IMG/VR virus record: IMGVR_UViG_3300032249_000146
Span: 1 to 32,563 of that record
Strand: one strand, 5' to 3'
DNA length: 32,563 bases
Origin: a virus
The notes beneath the pieces are model-generated. The model did not search any database, had not been told where the DNA came from, and saw nothing but the letters and a program-made list of their open reading frames with translations. Below are positions 466-26,027 of the stretch, piece after piece. The translations under genes and the position numbers were made by a program. Within the stretch, counting starts at the first letter, position 1. Every line of letters begins with the position of its first letter.

Positions 466-791
466 TGGAAGCAGGCCGTGTTACCTATTACTTAGACCTG
501 TGGCGTGATTACATGCAACAAGATAGCCATAAGCTAGGATATAAATCAAAGTCTACAGGATTTAACACAGGTGGCATACACTCATTTGAGGACATGGCTG
601 ACGAAGTAGACCATGATGCAGCTAAAGTAGTTGACCAGGTAATAGATGACCTGCCTACAATGCAGAAGAACGCTTTGTACGTTGTTTACTTATCTCAGAA
701 GGCTACAATGGATACAAGAGTGCTAGAGTATTACTTTGATAGCGCATTGATGATGCTACAGAGAAAGCTGAAGGAAAAGAATTTGTATTAA
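462..791 (+). CDS. Antitermination protein Q-like regulator
   Basis: A 109-residue protein starting at tandem ATGs, overlapping the RusA stop. The opening (YYLDLWRDYMQQD) and the helical, acidic middle followed by LPTMQKNALYVVYL and a C-terminal LQRKLKEK helix resemble the short Q-like phage antiterminators, which have a sigma-region-4-like helix arrangement. Such proteins load on RNA polymerase paused at the late promoter so that it reads through the terminator downstream. The position supports this: the next rightward elements are a promoter (1384-1413) and a leader terminator (1482-1508) ahead of the packaging genes. Sequence similarity alone is weak, and a sigma-like or unrelated HTH protein is possible. 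Confidence 0.55.
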   Translation: MMEAGRVTYYLDLWRDYMQQDSHKLGYKSKSTGFNTGGIHSFEDMADEVDHDAAKVVDQVIDDLPTMQKNALYVVYLSQKATMDTRVLEYYFDSALMMLQRKLKEKNLY

Positions 792-3295: not shown

Positions 3296-3568
3296 ATGAA
3301 CTCAGTAATTACTGGTGGCTATAAGCTAATCACAGCAACAGGCAACGTAAGCCCTATCACTACAGACTTGCTAGGCATTTTTGTATCAGCAGCATCTAGC
3401 ACACCTACAATCACTATCTACGACTCAGCTACAACAACAACGACTGCTAAGGTAGTAGAAACATTTACACCTGTGGCTGCAACTTACTACACAATCCCTG
3501 CATCATTAGGTGCTGGCTTGTACATAGTAATTGGTGGAACTGTAAGCGCAACTGTATTCTTCGGTTAA
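3296..3568 (+). CDS. Hypothetical small structural protein (90 aa)
   Basis: The start is the ATG at 3296 after AAGAGGAT; a reading frame extends upstream into TerL but has no such ribosome site. The protein (MNSVITGGYKLITATG...) is rich in Thr, Ala, Val and Gly with an alternating pattern that suggests a beta-sandwich, ending VSATVFFG. It sits between terminase and portal, where small head decoration or connector-associated proteins occur. No family recognised, so any structural role is a guess. Confidence 0.65.
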   Translation: MNSVITGGYKLITATGNVSPITTDLLGIFVSAASSTPTITIYDSATTTTTAKVVETFTPVAATYYTIPASLGAGLYIVIGGTVSATVFFG

Positions 3569-3577
3569 GGATAACTC

Positions 3578-5758
3578 ATGGCTAAAGTATCAGAGGTGGC
3601 ATCAGAGGTACAAACGTACCTTGACATGTTTAGCCAATACGAGAAAGAGTTTGTTAAATGGGAAGGCCGTGTAGAAAAGATTGTTAGACGCTATCGTGAT
3701 GATAGAACAACAACGACTGCACAATCTCATTACAACATCTTATGGGCTAACGTACAAACACTTAAGTCTGCTACTTTTAGCCGTATGCCTAGACCTGACG
3801 TATCACGTAGACATAAAGACAATGACCCTGTAGCTCGTGTAGCATCAATGCTATTGGAACGTGCGCTAGACTTTGAGATTACACACACAACAGACTTTCA
3901 ACATGCGCTTGGTGCTTGTGTATCAGACCGCTTCTTAGGTGGTCGTGGCACGTCATGGATTCGCTATGAGCCTATCATTGAAACAGATGACCTGTTTGTA
4001 TCTGAAACAGAGATTGACTCTGATTCTGTATCTGAGTACCTAGACATTGAGCAAGCGCCTGTAGATTACGTTCATTGGCGTGACTTTGGACATCAATCAG
4101 CTCGCACATGGGATGAAGTAACTTGCGTATGGCGTAAAGTTTACATGACCCGTAAGATGCTACGTGAACGCTTTCCTGAAGATAAGTTTGGTGAGTTAGC
4201 TGACCGTATTCCATTAGATGCGTCACCAGATGAGCCACGTCAAAAGATGACTGAAGGCGTTACTAAACGTGCAATGATTTACGAAGTATGGGATAAAGAG
4301 GAAAAGTGCGTATATTGGATTAGCAAATCAATGGGCAAGATTCTTGATGAGCGTGATGACCCTCTAGAGCTAGAGGAGTTCTTCCCTTGTCCTAAGCCTA
4401 TGTATGCTACGCTAACTAACGAAACGCTAGTACCTGTACCTGATTACACATTGTATCAAGACCAGGCTAATGAGCTAGATGTATTGACTGACCGCATCAA
4501 AGGCTTGATTGACGCATTGAAGGTACGTGGCTTCTACGATGCTGCTAACCCTGACCTTAATCGTCTATTTACAGAGGGCGATAACAATACGCTTATTCCT
4601 GTCAAGAACTACGCAGCCTTCGCTGAAAAGGGTGGCTTGCAAGGTGCTGTAACATTCGTAGACTTAAACCCTATTGCATCAGCATTGAACGTAGCTTATC
4701 AAGCGATGGGTCAAGTTAAACAACAAATTTATGACATTACAGGCATCTCAGACATTATTCGTGGTGCGTCTGTGGCTTCTGAAACAGCTACTGCACAGCA
4801 AATCAAAGGTCAATACGCTACATTACGTCTAAAGACATACCAAGACGAAGTAGCTCGCTTTGCATCACAAATCCTACAAATTAAAGCACAGATTATCTGC
4901 CAACACTTTCAACCTGAAACCATCATTAAGATTGGTGGCGCAGAGTTATTGAGCCAAACAGACCAACAGTTAGTGCCACAAGCAATTGAGTTATTAAAAG
5001 ACAACCCTATGCGTACATTCCGTGTAGAAATTGCTACTGACTCTATGTTGTATGCTGACGAACAGCAAGAGAAGCAAGACCGTGTAGAGTTTATGCAAGC
5101 TACTGGTGCTTTCATTGAGAAGGCTATACAAGGCGCACAACAAGTTCCTGAGCTTACACCATTGCTTATGGATTTACTCAAGTTTGGGGTGCAAGGCTTC
5201 CGTGTAGGACGTACGCTTGAAGGTGAGTTTGATACGTTTGCTGACGCTGAGAAAGAAAAGCAAATGCAAAGGGCTTCACAACCACCAGCTCCACAACCAC
5301 CATCACCTGAAATGATTAAAGCGCAAGCTGACCAGCAGAAGATGCAGATGGAAGCGCAAATTAAGCAGATGGAAATGCAAGCAGAAGCTCAACGTGAAGC
5401 ACAACGCTTAGAGTTTGATAAATACAAGCTAGAGCTAGAAAACAACACTAAGGTGCTTATTGCTGAGATGGAAGCTAAAAAAGACCTTAAAACTACGTCA
5501 TTAAACATCAACTCTAAAAAGGTTGAAGACACGATGACAATGATTGATGAAAATGGTAATCAAGTAGCGCATCCTGCATTATCTGATTTAGTAGACGCTA
5601 TTAATCAAAATCTACAAATGATGACATCATCACAAATGCAAAATAATGAAATGTTATTGCAGCAACAAGAGATGGCGCATCAGCAATTGATTAACAATGT
5701 AAGCAGACCTAAACAAGTGGTTCGTGACGTTAATGGGAAGATTGTAGGAGTTCAATAA
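3578..5758 (+). CDS. Portal protein (P22-like, long form)
   Basis: A 726-residue protein immediately after TerL. The N terminus (YEKEFVKWEGRVEKIVRRYRDD, then HYNILWANVQTLKSATFSRMPRP) is typical of large podovirus portals, and a central ITGISDIIRGASVASETATAQQIKGQ-like region matches the portal stem and crown segment. Residues from about 570 onward are a Met/Gln/Glu-rich coiled coil, as in the barrel of P22-type portals. It forms the dodecameric ring through which DNA enters and leaves. The last ~60 residues, ending RDVNGKIVGVQ, are clearly repeated in the next gene. The start has the AAGGATAACTC site. TAATG overlap with the downstream gene. Confidence 0.92.
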   Translation: MAKVSEVASEVQTYLDMFSQYEKEFVKWEGRVEKIVRRYRDDRTTTTAQSHYNILWANVQTLKSATFSRMPRPDVSRRHKDNDPVARVASMLLERALDFEITHTTDFQHALGACVSDRFLGGRGTSWIRYEPIIETDDLFVSETEIDSDSVSEYLDIEQAPVDYVHWRDFGHQSARTWDEVTCVWRKVYMTRKMLRERFPEDKFGELADRIPLDASPDEPRQKMTEGVTKRAMIYEVWDKEEKCVYWISKSMGKILDERDDPLELEEFFPCPKPMYATLTNETLVPVPDYTLYQDQANELDVLTDRIKGLIDALKVRGFYDAANPDLNRLFTEGDNNTLIPVKNYAAFAEKGGLQGAVTFVDLNPIASALNVAYQAMGQVKQQIYDITGISDIIRGASVASETATAQQIKGQYATLRLKTYQDEVARFASQILQIKAQIICQHFQPETIIKIGGAELLSQTDQQLVPQAIELLKDNPMRTFRVEIATDSMLYADEQQEKQDRVEFMQATGAFIEKAIQGAQQVPELTPLLMDLLKFGVQGFRVGRTLEGEFDTFADAEKEKQMQRASQPPAPQPPSPEMIKAQADQQKMQMEAQIKQMEMQAEAQREAQRLEFDKYKLELENNTKVLIAEMEAKKDLKTTSLNINSKKVEDTMTMIDENGNQVAHPALSDLVDAINQNLQMMTSSQMQNNEMLLQQQEMAHQQLINNVSRPKQVVRDVNGKIVGVQ

Positions 5759-5946
5759 TGCACCCTTATGAAAGCTTAATTAATTCAGTTAATGAAAACA
5801 TGAGAGCAGCAATTGAAGCTCAACAGCAATCACATCAAAGTTTATTGGAACGTCAAGCTATGTTGCATAACAATCTAGTAGCTCATCTTAGCAAGCCTAA
5901 AGAGGTTATGCGTGATGATAACGGCAAAATAATTGGAGTTAAATAG
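5758..5946 (+). CDS. Paralogue of the portal C-terminal tail (62 aa)
   Basis: A small protein starting at the overlapping TAATG of the portal stop. Its 61 residues after Met align almost end to end with the portal's last 62 residues: both start with HP, carry a Gln-rich helix, then S[KR]PK[EQ]V.RD.NGKI.GV at the C terminus. This shows a tandem duplication of the portal tail that became a separate gene. It is predicted to be one amphipathic helix plus a short conserved C-terminal tail. It could add extra copies of a portal-tail element to the vertex or act as an assembly factor (inference). Confidence 0.75.
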   Translation: MHPYESLINSVNENMRAAIEAQQQSHQSLLERQAMLHNNLVAHLSKPKEVMRDDNGKIIGVK

Positions 5947-7257
5947 ATGGCATTAATTGTTAAAGACAGAGTATTAGAAAGCTCTACGACTAGTGGCACA
6001 GGTTCGTTTACGCTAACAGGCGCACAGACAGGCTATCAATCATTTGCTGCTATTGGTGACGGCAACGAAACTTATTACACTATTCAAGGCAAGAATCCTG
6101 ACGGCACGTTGACAGGCGAATGGGAAGTAGGCAGCGGCACTTATACAGCATCTGGCACGACACTATCTCGTGATTATGTATCGTCAAATAGTTTAGGCAC
6201 GTCAGGTTCTTTTGCTCAAATTGACTTTTCTTCTGGCGATAAAGATGTATTTGTTACCTATCCATCAGAATTCTCATTGCTTGGTTTTACAAGCTCAACT
6301 TCATCTACAGGCTCAGGTAGTGTTGTATTAAGCAGCAATTCATCATTTGATACAAACATTACAGTTAATGGAATAACATTAGGTAAAGGTTCAGGAACTG
6401 GTATTCGTAACGTAGCTTTTGGTAACTCAGCATTAAATGCAAACACAACGGGTGCTGATAACGTAGCCCTAGGTTACCAAGCAATGTTTTTAAATACTAC
6501 GGGAAACTATAACGTAGCTTTAGGTTTTGGAGCTATGGCGCAGACTACTACAGGAACAAATAATACTGCTGTAGGGCAAAGCACTTTACTCTATAACCGC
6601 ACTTGTATTGAAAACACAGCAGTAGGAGCTGGTGCGATTTACGCACTTACTAAAGGAACTAATCCACTACTTACTACAGGCAATTATAATTCAGCTTTGG
6701 GTGTAAATGCACTCTATGCAAACGCAGGTGATTACAATATTGGGGTTGGACATAGCGCAGGAAAAGAAATTACTACTGGCTCTTATAATGTTGTTATAGG
6801 TTCTTACGATGGTAATAGCGGTGGCTTAGATATTCGCACATCTAATAACAATGTTGTCTTATCAGATGGTCAAGGTAACATTAGACTGCGTATTAATTCT
6901 AGTGGTAATTTATCAGTAACAGGTGCAATTGTTAGCACTAGAATTACTCCTAGAGTATCAACAACAACGTCTAGCGCAACACCTACAATCAATACTGATA
7001 ACGTAGACCAATATGGCTTAACTGCACAAGCGGTTGACATTACATCATTTACTACAAATTTAAGTGGCACTCCTACAGATGGTCAAAAGTTATGGATTTA
7101 CATTGTAGGTACAGCAGCTAGAGCAATTACATGGGGTGCTTCTTTTGAATCATCTACAGCAACACTTCCAACAACAACAGTAACTACAAATCGTCTTGAT
7201 ATAGGCTTCGTATGGAACGTAGCTACATCTAAATGGCGATGCGTAGCGGTAGCATAG
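5947..7257 (+). CDS. Tail fibre / adhesin-like protein with YadA-head-type repeats
   Basis: A 436-residue protein. The N-terminal part (VKDRVLESSTTSGTGSFTLTGA, then GNETYYTIQG) is a common phage fibre opening that binds other virion parts. Residues about 150-290 carry repeated NVALG/NTAVG/NSALG motifs with TTG spacers, the left-handed beta-roll pattern of trimeric autotransporter adhesin heads (Hep_Hag type). The C-terminal ~100 residues form a beta-rich domain seen in other phage fibres (QKLWIYIVGTAARAITWG). It probably contributes to host binding. It lies unusually far forward, between portal and scaffold. ATG follows GGAGTTAAATAG. Confidence 0.8.
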   Translation: MALIVKDRVLESSTTSGTGSFTLTGAQTGYQSFAAIGDGNETYYTIQGKNPDGTLTGEWEVGSGTYTASGTTLSRDYVSSNSLGTSGSFAQIDFSSGDKDVFVTYPSEFSLLGFTSSTSSTGSGSVVLSSNSSFDTNITVNGITLGKGSGTGIRNVAFGNSALNANTTGADNVALGYQAMFLNTTGNYNVALGFGAMAQTTTGTNNTAVGQSTLLYNRTCIENTAVGAGAIYALTKGTNPLLTTGNYNSALGVNALYANAGDYNIGVGHSAGKEITTGSYNVVIGSYDGNSGGLDIRTSNNNVVLSDGQGNIRLRINSSGNLSVTGAIVSTRITPRVSTTTSSATPTINTDNVDQYGLTAQAVDITSFTTNLSGTPTDGQKLWIYIVGTAARAITWGASFESSTATLPTTTVTTNRLDIGFVWNVATSKWRCVAVA

Positions 7258-13976: not shown

Positions 13977-15494
13977 ATGGCAAGAGCTAAAAGAGCTGTA
14001 TCACAGCCAATATCATTGCCAGCGCCTATAGGTGGATGGAACGCTAGAGATTCACTTACAGGTATGCAACCAACGGATGCTGTCATCCTAGAGAATTGGT
14101 TTCCATCACCAACCGAATGTACGTTACGCAATGGCTATACAAAGTACGCTACAGGCATTACAGGCCAAGTAGAAACTATCATGGCTTACTCAGGGGCTAA
14201 TGTTAATAAACTGTTTGCTATTGCAGGAACTATTGTTTATGACGTAACAGCAGGTGGCGCAGCAACATCATCATTGACAGGCTTAACTAACGCTAGATGG
14301 GGCTATTGCAACATTGCAACGTCTGGTGGCAACTTTTTATCAATGGCTAATGGTGTAGATGCCCCTCGTAACTATAACGGCACAGTATGGTCTACTCCTA
14401 CTATTACAGGCGTTACAGCCGCTAACTTACAAGACCCATTACTGTTTGCTCAACGTCAATTCTTTATCGAGAAAAACAGCCTTAAAGTATGGTATTTGCC
14501 TGTGCAATCAATTGCAGGCGCAGCTAACGCAGTAGACATTGCACCATTCATGACTAGAGGCGGTTACATTGTAGCGCATGGCACATGGACAATTGATGCA
14601 GGTGAAGGTGTAAACGACCATTACGTAATTATGACTAACAAAGGTCAAGTTATCGTATATCAAGGCACAGACCCTTCAGCTCCTGCAACTTGGGCCATGA
14701 AAGGCGTGTGGGATATTGGCGCTCCTATAGGCCGTAGAGCGCTTTACAAATACGCTGGTGATATGCTTATCATCTCTCAAGATGGCGTAGTGCCGTTATC
14801 AGGCGCTTTGCAATCATCACGTGTGCAACCAAGAGTAGCCATTACAGATAAGATTCAATACGCTATTTCAGAAGCAGTAACCAATTACGCAAGTAACTAT
14901 GGTTGGCAATTGATGTACGTTCCTACAATTAACCAATTGTGGCTAAATGTACCTGTGCAAGAAGGTCAAAACCAACAGCAATATGTAATGAATACGATTA
15001 CAGGCGCTTGGTGTAACTACACAGGTTGGGCTGCTAACTGTATGGAAATGTTTAACGATGAGCCTTACTTTGGTGGCAATGGATTCGTAGCAAGAGCTTA
15101 TTATGGCTTGGTTGATGACGTAAGCAATATCACAGCAACAGGTTTACAAGCATTTAACAACTTTAATAATGCAGGCGCATTAAAGCGCTTTACTATGTCA
15201 CGCCCTATCTTTAGAACTGACGGACAGCCTTCAATCTTTGCAGGTATTAACATTGACTTTAACATTGAAATCCCTGTTACATCACTAACCTACGCACCAA
15301 GCACTTATGCTGCTTGGGATACAGCTATTTGGGATGCTGCATTATGGGGTGGTGGCTTATCAGTATTGCAGAATTGGCAAGGTTTAAATGGTGTTGGCTA
15401 TTATGGCGCACCTATTGTTAAAACGGCTTCTTCAGGTATTCAAGTAAGATGGGTGTCAACAGATTTGGTAGTAGAGGGTGGCGCAATCCTATGA
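13977..15494 (+). CDS. Tail nozzle / packaged-DNA stabilisation protein (P22 gp10-like)
   Basis: A 505-residue protein with the recognisable opening ISLPAPIGGWNARDSLTGM followed by AVILENWFPSPTECTLRNGY, a signature of podovirus nozzle or DNA-stabilisation proteins. Repeated beta segments (IGRRALYKYAGDMLIISQDGVVPL, QLMYVPTINQLWLNV) fit a beta-propeller. It would form the hexameric tube closing the tail and retaining DNA. Its stop overlaps the acetyltransferase start (ATGA). Confidence 0.82.
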   Translation: MARAKRAVSQPISLPAPIGGWNARDSLTGMQPTDAVILENWFPSPTECTLRNGYTKYATGITGQVETIMAYSGANVNKLFAIAGTIVYDVTAGGAATSSLTGLTNARWGYCNIATSGGNFLSMANGVDAPRNYNGTVWSTPTITGVTAANLQDPLLFAQRQFFIEKNSLKVWYLPVQSIAGAANAVDIAPFMTRGGYIVAHGTWTIDAGEGVNDHYVIMTNKGQVIVYQGTDPSAPATWAMKGVWDIGAPIGRRALYKYAGDMLIISQDGVVPLSGALQSSRVQPRVAITDKIQYAISEAVTNYASNYGWQLMYVPTINQLWLNVPVQEGQNQQQYVMNTITGAWCNYTGWAANCMEMFNDEPYFGGNGFVARAYYGLVDDVSNITATGLQAFNNFNNAGALKRFTMSRPIFRTDGQPSIFAGINIDFNIEIPVTSLTYAPSTYAAWDTAIWDAALWGGGLSVLQNWQGLNGVGYYGAPIVKTASSGIQVRWVSTDLVVEGGAIL

Positions 15495-15886
15495 TTGTTC
15501 AAGGCGAACATGTTGCTCGCTGGGTTATGGCAAAGATTGGTGCTTTTACTGAAGGCATGACTGCTCTTGGATGGGAGGTAGATGGTGTTATTGTTGCTGG
15601 AACAGCGTTTGAGAATTACAACGGTAATAATATGTTTGGTCATCAACGCATTGATTCACCGCCTACGAGAGAGTATTGGTTTGCAGTAGCTAATTATATT
15701 TTTAATCAAACAAAGGTTAAACGTTTCACCGCTACCGTTGAAGCTGACAACCATAAAGCAATAAGACTTAATCACAAGATTGGGTTTGTAATAGAAACAA
15801 CATTAAAAGATGCAGGTCGCAATGGTGATTTATTAATTATGACGCTATGGCCTGAAAATTGCAAAATGCTTAACTGGAGTAAATAA
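15491..15886 (+). CDS. GNAT-family N-acetyltransferase-like protein
   Basis: The ATG at 15491 overlaps the nozzle stop; an earlier GTG-type start inside the nozzle is less likely. The protein (131 aa) has the C-terminal GNAT pattern: FTATVEADNHKAIRLNHKIGF, equivalent to the V.N..A...y.K.GF motif of acetyltransferases such as RimI, then LLIMTLW. The R/Q-x-x-G-x-A acetyl-CoA loop is not obvious, so cofactor binding may be altered. Acetyltransferase-like genes are frequent among podovirus tail genes, with unknown targets. It could modify a virion protein or a host factor (inference). Confidence 0.75.
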   Translation: MIVQGEHVARWVMAKIGAFTEGMTALGWEVDGVIVAGTAFENYNGNNMFGHQRIDSPPTREYWFAVANYIFNQTKVKRFTATVEADNHKAIRLNHKIGFVIETTLKDAGRNGDLLIMTLWPENCKMLNWSK

Positions 15887-22530: not shown

Positions 22531-23284
22531 AACGCATTTCGTTTTACCTGATGTCCAGGCTAAAGACGGCAATGATTTTACATTCTTAACCTGTATCGGC
22601 AAATACATTGTCGATAAGAAACCTGATGTAATTATCTGTATTGGCGATTTTGCTGATATGGAGTCTTTAAGCTCTTATGACGTAGGCAAAAAATCGTTTG
22701 AGGGTAGGAGTTACCAAAAAGATATTTGGGCGGCACGTCAAGCTATGGATGCCTTGCTGACCCCTATGTATGATTACAACGACAAGCGTAGGAAGTTAAA
22801 AGAAAAGACTTATCGTCCTCGCATGGTATTAACGCTTGGCAATCACGAAGCACGTATCAATACAGCAATTAACAACGATAGGAAGCTAGATGGCCTTATC
22901 TCTACCGATGACCTGCCGTATCAAGACTGGGAAGTTTATCCTTTTCTCGAAGTTGTTGTTATTGATGGCATTGCCTATTCTCATTACTTTACTTCTGGCC
23001 CCATGGGTCGTCCTGTTTGTAGCGCTCAAGCACTCCTTACAAAAAAGCACATGAGTTGTTTTGCAGGTCACCAGCAAGGCAGGCAAGTAGCTTACGGTAT
23101 GCGAGCTGATGGAACTGAAATGACAGCCATTATTTCAGGTAGCTGTTATGAGCATAAAGAGGATTATCTAGGCGCACAGGGCAACAATCATTTTAGAGGC
23201 GCTTATATGCTTTACGATGTAGAGGATGGCAGATTTGACGAATTGCCATTGACGTTGAAATACTTAAAAAATAGATATGCCTAA
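22505..23284 (+). CDS. Calcineurin-like metallophosphoesterase
   Basis: A 259-residue protein from the ATG at 22505; an earlier TTG in frame is less likely because the family motif starts right after this ATG. Metal motifs in order: FVLPDVQ (D16, with Gln where D-x-H has His), IGDFADME (D48), LGNHE (N113, H114), AYSHYF (H160) and FAGHQQG (H189). This is the calcineurin-like fold with two metals, active on phosphomono- or diesters; a DNA-, nucleotide- or RNA-directed role in phages is unresolved. The change at Q18 could lower or alter metal binding. It ends tail to tail with the HNH/AP2 gene. Confidence 0.85.
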   Translation: MSYPTSPTRTHFVLPDVQAKDGNDFTFLTCIGKYIVDKKPDVIICIGDFADMESLSSYDVGKKSFEGRSYQKDIWAARQAMDALLTPMYDYNDKRRKLKEKTYRPRMVLTLGNHEARINTAINNDRKLDGLISTDDLPYQDWEVYPFLEVVVIDGIAYSHYFTSGPMGRPVCSAQALLTKKHMSCFAGHQQGRQVAYGMRADGTEMTAIISGSCYEHKEDYLGAQGNNHFRGAYMLYDVEDGRFDELPLTLKYLKNRYA

Positions 23285-23748
23285 TAATTACTAGCAAAAT
23301 TACCATGAAACTTATGTCTAGTAACAAATGAAATGCAGCATGCTTCAAAAAAATCTGCAAAATAGCCAATATGATATTTTTTGCTATTTAAAGTTATTTG
23401 AACTTGCCATTTTTTAGCATTTTTATTCCACATAACTCCTTTAATTCCTGTGGTATTGTTTGTAGGAATTTTAGAGTTAAAAGCATTTTGCTGATTGGTT
23501 GCTTCTCTTAAATTACATAGTCTATTATCGGATTTGTTTCCGTTAATATGGTCTACGTATTTAGGGAAGTAGCCATAAGCATAAAGCCAAGCTAAACGAT
23601 GGCCATAATATAATTTATCGCCAATTCCAATTTGAGAGTATTTATTTTTTGGATAATATCCAGCTTGTTTGTTTAATTTAATCCAGGTGAAAATGCCTGT
23701 ATCTAAATCGTAATGTAATTGTGCTTTTAATTCTGCTTGTGTAAGCAT
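23281..23748 (-). CDS. HNH homing endonuclease with AP2 DNA-binding domain
   Basis: A 155-residue protein on the opposite strand to the late genes, overlapping the phosphoesterase stop by 4 bp. HNH_3 core: H50 in YYGHRLAWLYAYGYFP, D66-H67 in YVDHINGNKSDNRLCNLREAT, and a final Asn. Residues 100-130 (TGIKGVMWNKNAKKWQVQI, then KYHIGYF) form an AP2/ERF-type DNA-binding domain, usual in free-standing phage homing endonucleases. It has its own promoter and a structured 5' leader that can hide its ribosome site. The gene probably inserted between late genes as a selfish element. Confidence 0.92.
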   Translation of the reverse strand: MLTQAELKAQLHYDLDTGIFTWIKLNKQAGYYPKNKYSQIGIGDKLYYGHRLAWLYAYGYFPKYVDHINGNKSDNRLCNLREATNQQNAFNSKIPTNNTTGIKGVMWNKNAKKWQVQITLNSKKYHIGYFADFFEACCISFVTRHKFHGNFASNY

Positions 23749-25561: not shown

Positions 25562-25618
25562 TTAAATTCACTACTAGCAATACATGATTGTCCCGATGCG
25601 TCAAAACTGCATTTCTGT

Positions 25619-25676
25619 TAATATGTAATACATTCAATGCAAAATTCGTTGTGTTGAATATATTTGACATTATTAC
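25619..25676 (+). promoter_or_regulatory. Possible promoter(s) of the pqqA-like gene
   Basis: Two candidates precede the gene: an extended -10 TGTTAATAT (TAATAT at 25619-25624, no good -35) and TTGTGT (25649-25654) followed after 16 bases by TATTAC (25671-25676). Neither is strong. The 132-bp gap after the previous gene is large for this genome, which favours a separate transcript. The region holds no other feature that I can see. Confidence 0.35.
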
Positions 25677-25693
25677 ACACAAAGGAAATTATC

Positions 25694-25765
25694 ATGTGGA
25701 CTAAACCAGCTGCTACAGAAATGCGTTTTGGCTTTGAAGTGACAATGTACGTAATGAATAAATAA
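25694..25765 (+). CDS. pqqA: PqqA-like precursor peptide of pyrroloquinoline quinone
   Basis: A 23-codon gene with a good ribosome site (AAAGGAAATTATC before ATG). The peptide starts MWTKPA and continues to R11-x-G13-x-E15-V16-T17-x-Y19 and N22-K23. This matches PqqA in length (23 aa), N terminus (MW-K-PA), the R-x-G-x-EVT-x-Y core and the N-[RK] end; I count 12 of 23 identities with the Klebsiella PqqA as I recall it. E15 and Y19 are the two side chains that PqqE joins to build PQQ. No pqqB, C, D or E is in the window, so the peptide could only work with host enzymes. It is flanked by non-coding DNA, separate from the lysis operon, and probably has its own transcript. Function inferred. Confidence 0.82.
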   Translation: MWTKPAATEMRFGFEVTMYVMNK

Positions 25766-25780
25766 TGTTTACTGGCGGTT

Positions 25781-25841
25781 AAGCCGACAACAGAGGATAT
25801 AGCAAGTAACGAGTTTTTCGGCTTTCTGCGTTACATGTAAC
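25781..25841. terminator. Inverted-repeat cluster between convergent operons
   Basis: AAGCCGA (25781-25787) pairs perfectly with TCGGCTT (25818-25824), GTAACG (25806-25811) with CGTTAC (25829-25834), and GTTACATGTAAC (25830-25841) is a 12-bp palindrome. The site lies between the rightward pqqA-like gene and the end of the leftward operon, so a bidirectional terminator is likely, although no long T run follows. A protein-binding site is the alternative. Confidence 0.4.
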
Positions 25842-25846
25842 AGCTA

Positions 25847-25957
25847 TCAAATCTGCGCCAACTTCGTATAAACATAAACCAGCGTCAATGCAGTACAGAA
25901 GCCTAATGCAAAGGCGCTGGCGTAACAAATCACATACTCTATAATGACACTAATCAT
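25847..25957 (-). CDS. Single-TM microprotein (36 aa)
   Basis: The last gene of the leftward operon. It has a clear AAAGGAAAAAACGC site before the ATG. The peptide is one hydrophobic helix (IIEYVICYASAFALGFCTAL, with two Cys) followed by VYTKLAQI. Very small membrane proteins are common in phage early regions, where some inhibit host functions or exclude other phages. No family can be assigned. Confidence 0.5.
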   Translation of the reverse strand: MISVIIEYVICYASAFALGFCTALTLVYVYTKLAQI

Positions 25958-26027
25958 GCGTTTTTTCCTTTATACTGGACATAATGTTAGATTTTACCGA
26001 CATATCATCCATTACAATACATAAAAG

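Follow-up and report, generated by a model that had tools for sequence, protein, structure and literature searches.

The viral DNA analyzed here, a stretch of 32,563 nucleotides (the window), carries a gene for PqqA, the precursor peptide of the cofactor PQQ. Genes of this kind were found in many unrelated phage lineages as stand-alone copies, and most of them share an upstream operator with the pqq genes of methylotrophic bacteria. We consider it highly probable that phage pqqA is a one-gene metabolic add-on, expressed from a promoter with the host's operator, processed by the host, and yielding PQQ for methanol dehydrogenases. This suggests that phages maintain the cofactor supply for methanol oxidation of their hosts during infection.

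The pqqA gene of the window (positions 25694 to 25765, + strand) encodes the 23-residue PqqA precursor MWTKPAATEMRFGFEVTMYVMNK, followed by a TAA stop. It is preceded by a ribosome-binding site, AAAGGAA, at positions 25681 to 25687 (+), with a spacing of 6 nt to the ATG. A first-pass annotation of this DNA had described a 23-codon gene with a good ribosome site, and both were recovered here; the ORF appears to have a proper translation start and falls within the range of 22 to 24 residues used for PqqA peptides. All hallmark residues named in that annotation are present (MW at the start, K4, P5, A6, R11, G13, E15, V16, T17, Y19, and N22), including the Glu-x-x-x-Tyr motif with a Gly two positions and an Arg four positions before the Glu (R11, G13, E15, and Y19). 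The proposed identity was borne out by profile searches, in which the peptide scored 40 to 42 bits (42.4 at best) with PF08042 (cut-off, 21.1) and 40.4 bits with TIGR02107, the NCBIfam equivalog model for PqqA (cut-off, 20), i.e., about 20 bits above the cut-off of either profile. A loose DNA pattern for PqqA matched once in the window, with 0.00 matches expected from 100 dinucleotide shuffles. On sequence grounds, the ORF is confirmed as a genuine member of the PqqA family. Searches by tblastn with PqqB, PqqC, PqqD, and PqqE gave no homologs in the window, and the earlier statement that the genome carries no other pqq gene therefore holds for these 32.6 kb.

The window is the genome of a tailed phage, with genes for a terminase, a portal protein, a major head protein, an endolysin, a Sak-type annealing protein, and a helicase. 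The terminases closest to that of the window (42 to 45% identity) come from Pelagibacter phages, Methylophilales phage Venkman, and Rhodoferax phage P26218. Bacterial contamination as the source of the gene was rejected on account of the terminase, portal, major head protein, and endolysin genes in the window; pqqA is likewise present in sequenced phage isolates. Besides pqqA, the window harbors a gene for an acyl-CoA N-acyltransferase (15449 to 15883, +) that overlaps the 3' end of the preceding gene and belongs to PHROG 4470, a family classed as "moron, auxiliary metabolic gene and host takeover." Two genes of the HNH/endonuclease VII type (788 to 1333 and 23281 to 23745, both on the - strand) are oriented opposite to their neighbors and probably encode homing endonucleases.

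Alignment with three related contigs (L325, L026, and L327) delimited a mobile cassette consisting of promoter and pqqA at positions 25571 to 25765 (+), flanked by lysis and late genes on the + strand and recombination genes on the - strand. Close relatives hold other cargo or another pqqA allele at this position. In L325, whose endolysin is 98% identical to that of the window, a longer, unrelated ORF replaces pqqA at about positions 1820 to 2700 between unchanged flanks, and the locus can therefore be regarded as a cargo slot. L026 has the same promoter as the window with a different PqqA allele, MWKKPVATEIRLGMEITAYVMNR, and the 100 to 150 bases 5' of pqqA are nearly 100% conserved in L026, L128, L251, and L327. 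The cassette is not universal among the window's own relatives, as it was found nearby in 5 of 19 contigs selected for an endolysin identity of at least 85% and an extension of 2 kb or more. Its 3' border is formed by a block at positions 25766 to 25960 that is near-invariant in L325, L026, L327, and L291, even where the cargo differs; this block contains a short membrane-type ORF of about 36 amino acids on the - strand, read by eye, and a GTTACATGTAAC palindrome. No clear terminator was detected after pqqA of the window, and folding of the downstream RNA gave no significant structure.

Genomes of Methylotenera, Methylophilus, and "Ca. Methylopumilus" encode a PqqA identical to the window peptide, and the host of the window phage is probably a methylotroph. 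At the DNA level, the gene is identical in 71 of 72 positions, with 47 bases in a row, to one copy of an uncultured proteobacterium and in 70 of 72 positions to a copy in a Methylotenera metagenome-assembled genome (MAG). Comparison with host pqqA genes and their surroundings, which had been proposed as a check, thus gave 71 of 72 matches at best within the gene and flanks unlike those of the hosts. All 120 Methylophilaceae genomes sampled contain pqqA, and 114 have at least two copies (median, 4; range, 1 to 12). Such hosts have been described to possess many pqqA genes and a single pqqBCDE set (PMC4109929), and strong expression from only some of the pqqA copies was reported for a PQQ-producing methylotroph (PMC9851590); the biosynthesis pathway is also given in PMC12997753. 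PqqB to PqqE matches in host loci, including a pqqB gene 3' of the shared operator in Methylophilus methylotrophus, indicate that the likely hosts supply pqqBCDE, and support the view that the would-be hosts possess the rest of the PQQ pathway.

The distribution of pqqA among phages was analyzed by tblastn of the window peptide against 50,697 phage records. Nine records of Methylophilales or Methylophilaceae phages matched (Venkman, P19250A, MEP301, MEP401, MEP402, and four of Melnitz), and any statement on all such phages covers these nine records, with taxonomy entries such as HIM624-A, MEP431-434, and MG-MTP1 lying outside the matches. The environmental phage genome ctXG6705 encodes a peptide 100% identical to that of the window. 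Two "Acinetobacter phage" records also matched. One of them, "Acinetobacter phage MD-2021a" (L008, CAKLQF020000010.1), was rejected as bacterial DNA filed as phage; the record contains pqqA-B-C-D-E at positions 3501 to 6755 as well as polyphosphate kinase and further bacterial genes. Apart from a misfiled Acinetobacter record, no PqqA was found with two queries in phages of Klebsiella, Pseudomonas, and other PQQ users; the second query, a Klebsiella-type peptide, returned the same set of records. The first-pass annotation had warned that gene callers easily miss a gene this short, and in all six annotated phage records inspected pqqA was indeed unannotated or covered by an antisense hypothetical ORF. 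Two of these antisense "hypothetical proteins," in ctXG6705 (L002, 2067 to 2195) and Melnitz (L007, 3461 to 3556), are probably false genes.

A strict DNA pattern identified at least 120 contigs in IMG/VR, and the matches listed were all 23-codon ORFs with a ribosome site. A second scan added 33 loci, bringing the total to at least 150 contigs with a stand-alone pqqA; ribosome sites of the GGAG/AAGGA type precede nearly all phage copies. Exactly one pqqA per record was present in each of 36 phage records searched as a whole, none of which (0/36) had a PqqE match above the cut-off. The 356,312-base viral contig L025 carries a single pqqA at positions 684 to 740 (-), and the trait therefore extends to genomes of jumbo size. 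Among 152 phage loci, we counted 117 distinct pairs of neighboring gene families, and both neighbors were on the opposite strand in 43 loci. Intrinsic terminators were found 3' of 55 of 148 phage copies, compared to 0 to 3 in shuffled sequence. When the contigs were grouped by shared genes, the number of groups ranged from 21 to 46 with the threshold applied, and Melnitz, MEP301, MEP402, P19250A, and Venkman were placed apart in the strictest grouping; these counts are based on share-based thresholds, as single linkage was too loose for counting lineages. Thus, pqqA is carried by many unrelated phage lineages, as a separate unit and alone.

The phage peptide might also lead to PQQ that is used for something other than methanol oxidation, e.g., as a redox protectant, for another quinoprotein, or to replace PQQ that is lost once host transcription ceases. 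Such a benefit would fit the fact that the sequence itself names no PQQ-using enzyme, with no PQQ alcohol dehydrogenase detected in any of 46 phage records. However, among phage records pqqA is limited to phages that infect methylotrophs, and the central pathway of these hosts begins with a PQQ-dependent methanol dehydrogenase; moreover, a phage from Lake Baikal pairs PqqA with a methanol dehydrogenase (PMC7678222). We therefore consider a benefit outside methanol oxidation to be improbable.

The phage copies are clearly under constraint. For 113 distinct phage pqqA DNA sequences, a pN/pS of 0.20 was calculated. R11, which was left free in the first search pattern, is present in 113 of 113 copies and is encoded by five different codons. 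Residues fixed by the first pattern were left out as evidence of conservation, and the scan was repeated with the codons for E15 and Y19 free. E15, Y19, and the stop after codon 23 were found in 130 of 130 copies matching the freer pattern, a set that includes loci first obtained with the stricter pattern and in which the 33 new loci all agree; positions 6 to 8 show four to eight different residues each in these 130 copies. In 24 further copies, located via neighboring genes, E15, T17, and Y19 are present throughout, and K4, V16, and M18 may vary. With this pN/pS and invariant catalytic residues, the gene is kept by selection. Loss of the reading frame or of E15 and Y19 in related phages had been named in advance as evidence against a functional gene; both the frame and the two residues proved to be conserved.

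These data also bear on the suggestion, made along with the initial identification, that the phage peptide may act as a decoy or inhibitor by occupying PqqE/PqqD, with the result that host PQQ falls. The binding surface of the peptide should indeed be that of a substrate, as expected for the same sequence. Yet the window peptide matches a host substrate in every residue and so cannot behave otherwise than that substrate does. A decoy should moreover lose E15 and Y19, but both are retained in every copy found while synonymous sites vary freely, which argues for a working substrate and makes a decoy very unlikely. We attach equally little weight to the possibility that the sequence serves as an attachment or recombination site or is functionless DNA carried by accident. 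The close match to a single host copy (71 of 72 bases, 47 of them contiguous) and the exchange of cargo at the pqqA locus would agree with such an origin, but the flanks of the window differ from those of the host, the peptide is held despite synonymous divergence, and the context differs in nearly every lineage. In addition, a PHROGs scan revealed no integrase among 20 larger window proteins, and no integration junction at a host pqqA was seen. Constraint, flanks, and diversity of contexts thus speak against both an attachment site and accidental DNA, and for a gene that provides PqqA.

Motif discovery in 113 dissimilar phage upstream regions yielded the motif WYTMATGATTWTCnnTAK, and a separate analysis of 117 upstream regions of host pqqA genes yielded YTMAKGAAAATCMTGAG. 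Both represent one palindrome read on opposite strands (correlation of position weight matrices, 0.81; maximum of 500 column shuffles, 0.71), with the ideal form CTMATGA-TTT-TCATKAG, here named PQQ box, for which we found no earlier description in the open-access literature searched. In a 2-fold cross-validation, the box was detected in 68 to 79% of phage and 81 to 85% of host pqqA upstream regions compared to 0.7 to 1.7% of those of other genes; overall, it precedes about 80% of phage and host pqqA copies versus about 1% of other upstream regions. It was also present in 19 of 23 later phage loci unlike the training sequences (controls, 0.7%) and in 98% of 41 pqqA copies of Methylophaga-type hosts. 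The best site of the window (17.0 bits) is the candidate operator ATACATGATTGTCCCGATGC at positions 25580 to 25599 (+), followed by a site of 14.4 bits at position 2353 that lies within a gene. Scores above 12 bits were obtained for the window and for 6 of 6 annotated phage genomes tested. Of 15 box sites with at most one mismatch in five host genomes, 13 are located 105 to 142 bases 5' of pqqA, and the other two lie before pqqB and at a position unrelated to pqq genes. In M. methylotrophus, a box without mismatch (L406, G006:C1:182165-182181) lies directly 5' of pqqB-pqqC, and the box may therefore control the whole PQQ pathway beyond orphan pqqA genes. Strain LSUCC0135 has a perfect box (L423, G003:C14:24703-24719) away from any pqqA, between genes for a leucyl-aminopeptidase-like protein and a glycine-zipper protein, possibly a further member of the regulon.

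The hexamer TATAAT was found upstream of 39% of phage pqqA genes, 3% of host pqqA genes, and 12% of other phage genes. Where phage copies have a TATAAT-like -10 element, it starts 28 to 33 nt past the box center in 32 of 56 cases. This spacing puts the box near position -41.5, the position of class II activators, and we infer that the phage box acts at such a site; it is also from this position that activation rather than repression appears to be the mode of control. The window has a candidate extended -10, TGT-TAATAT, at positions 25616 to 25624 (+), 29 nt after the box center, which is weak with 4 of 6 matches to the -10 consensus. A scan of the window for consensus sigma-70 promoters gave nothing beyond chance; one candidate at positions 25664 to 25692 was dropped due to its overlap with the ribosome site. 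An upstream palindrome, TGTAAT...ATTACA, was also rejected, as it occurs in just 2 to 3% of the loci. As a class, with a PQQ box promoter and the terminators and varied neighbors described above, phage pqqA resembles a moron-like independent transcription unit; the window shows the box and the weak -10 of such a unit, but no terminator was detected there. That phage genomes merely soak up the host regulator with many PQQ boxes, the peptide being incidental, is the least credible of all explanations. Retention of the box in about 80% of the phage copies would agree with it, but no box is recognizable in about 20%, and the frame and the catalytic pair are kept although they would be free to decay.

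Taken together, the data fit a mechanism in which the phage supplies PqqA to the pathway of its host. During infection, the phage would transcribe its own pqqA from a promoter bearing the operator of the host's pqq genes, and the host regulator would switch on the gene via the PQQ box at the class II activator position, probably aided by a -10 element that is usually better than that of the host copies. Host PqqD/PqqE would accept the phage peptide and cross-link Glu15 and Tyr19, and trimming and maturation to PQQ would be carried out by PqqF/G, PqqB, and PqqC of the host. The cofactor would then be loaded into methanol dehydrogenases of the XoxF and MxaF types, through which carbon and energy enter the metabolism of these obligate or nearly obligate methylotrophs, and the enzymes would stay supplied with it during the shutdown or degradation of the host's own genes, presumably to the benefit of phage yield. 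The first-pass annotation had likewise proposed that the phage feeds the host pathway, and this is in agreement with the identity of the peptide to host PqqA, the invariant E15 and Y19, the remaining pathway in the hosts, and the host pqq box that is usually found upstream. PqqA is consumed in PQQ synthesis, and the enzymes are not. Since one peptide is used per PQQ and the enzymes are catalytic and persistent, pqqA alone should suffice for the phage; the host possibly meets the same supply problem with its 1 to 12 pqqA copies.

We slightly favor a broader interpretation, according to which unrelated methylotroph phages have converged on the pqqA cassette, with the operator of the host's pqq genes and a core promoter stronger than that of the host, PqqA supply limits methanol-driven energy, and phages read the methanol or PQQ state of the host by way of its PQQ regulator. 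If so, the limiting step in infected cells would be the supply of PqqA and not any enzyme. A gene of 72 bases, overlooked in those public phage records that were examined here, appears to be among the most constant features of methylotroph phages in fresh water and seawater, and it offers a clear and cheap test of what limits the growth of phages in these very abundant methylotrophs. The PQQ box, in turn, provides a new handle on the control of PQQ in methylotrophs, and the boxes of orphan pqqA genes offer a route to the regulator.

Phage-encoded PqqA as such is already known. In 2020, PqqA of the methylotroph phage VP_266 from Lake Baikal was proposed to boost methanol oxidation (PMC7678222); in contrast to the phages described here, VP_266 represents one T4-like population that also encodes a methanol dehydrogenase, whereas we observed pqqA alone, in many unrelated lineages including cultured phages, and with an operator shared with the host. 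A 2026 survey of reservoir sediments counted viral contigs with pqqA, pqqD, or pqqE under phosphate solubilization, and its passages on these contigs contain no analysis of sequence, context, or regulation (PMC13188868). A paper on Methylophilales phages names PQQ solely as a medium additive (PMC9004378), and PMC8024684, PMC10580990, and PMC8163748 do not mention phage pqqA. New in the open-access literature searched are therefore the stand-alone pqqA in the cultured Methylophilales phages seen and in many uncultured lineages, its having been overlooked in the records of isolates, and a regulatory element common to phage pqqA and host pqq genes.

Compared to bacterial PqqA of the Methylophilaceae, the phage gene has the same 23 amino acids, the catalytic Glu and Tyr, the ribosome site, and the upstream PQQ box, and the hosts, too, keep stand-alone pqqA copies far from pqqBCDE. 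It differs in that no other pqq gene lies beside it and in the more frequent TATAAT in its promoter. Phages are known to carry other host genes that support a key pathway of the host during infection, such as psbA, pmoC, and phoH. Unlike these genes, which encode proteins of multiple turnover, pqqA encodes a consumed precursor of the RiPP type in 72 bases, a size below the reach of most gene callers, and indicates that RiPP-type precursor peptides can serve alone as auxiliary genes.
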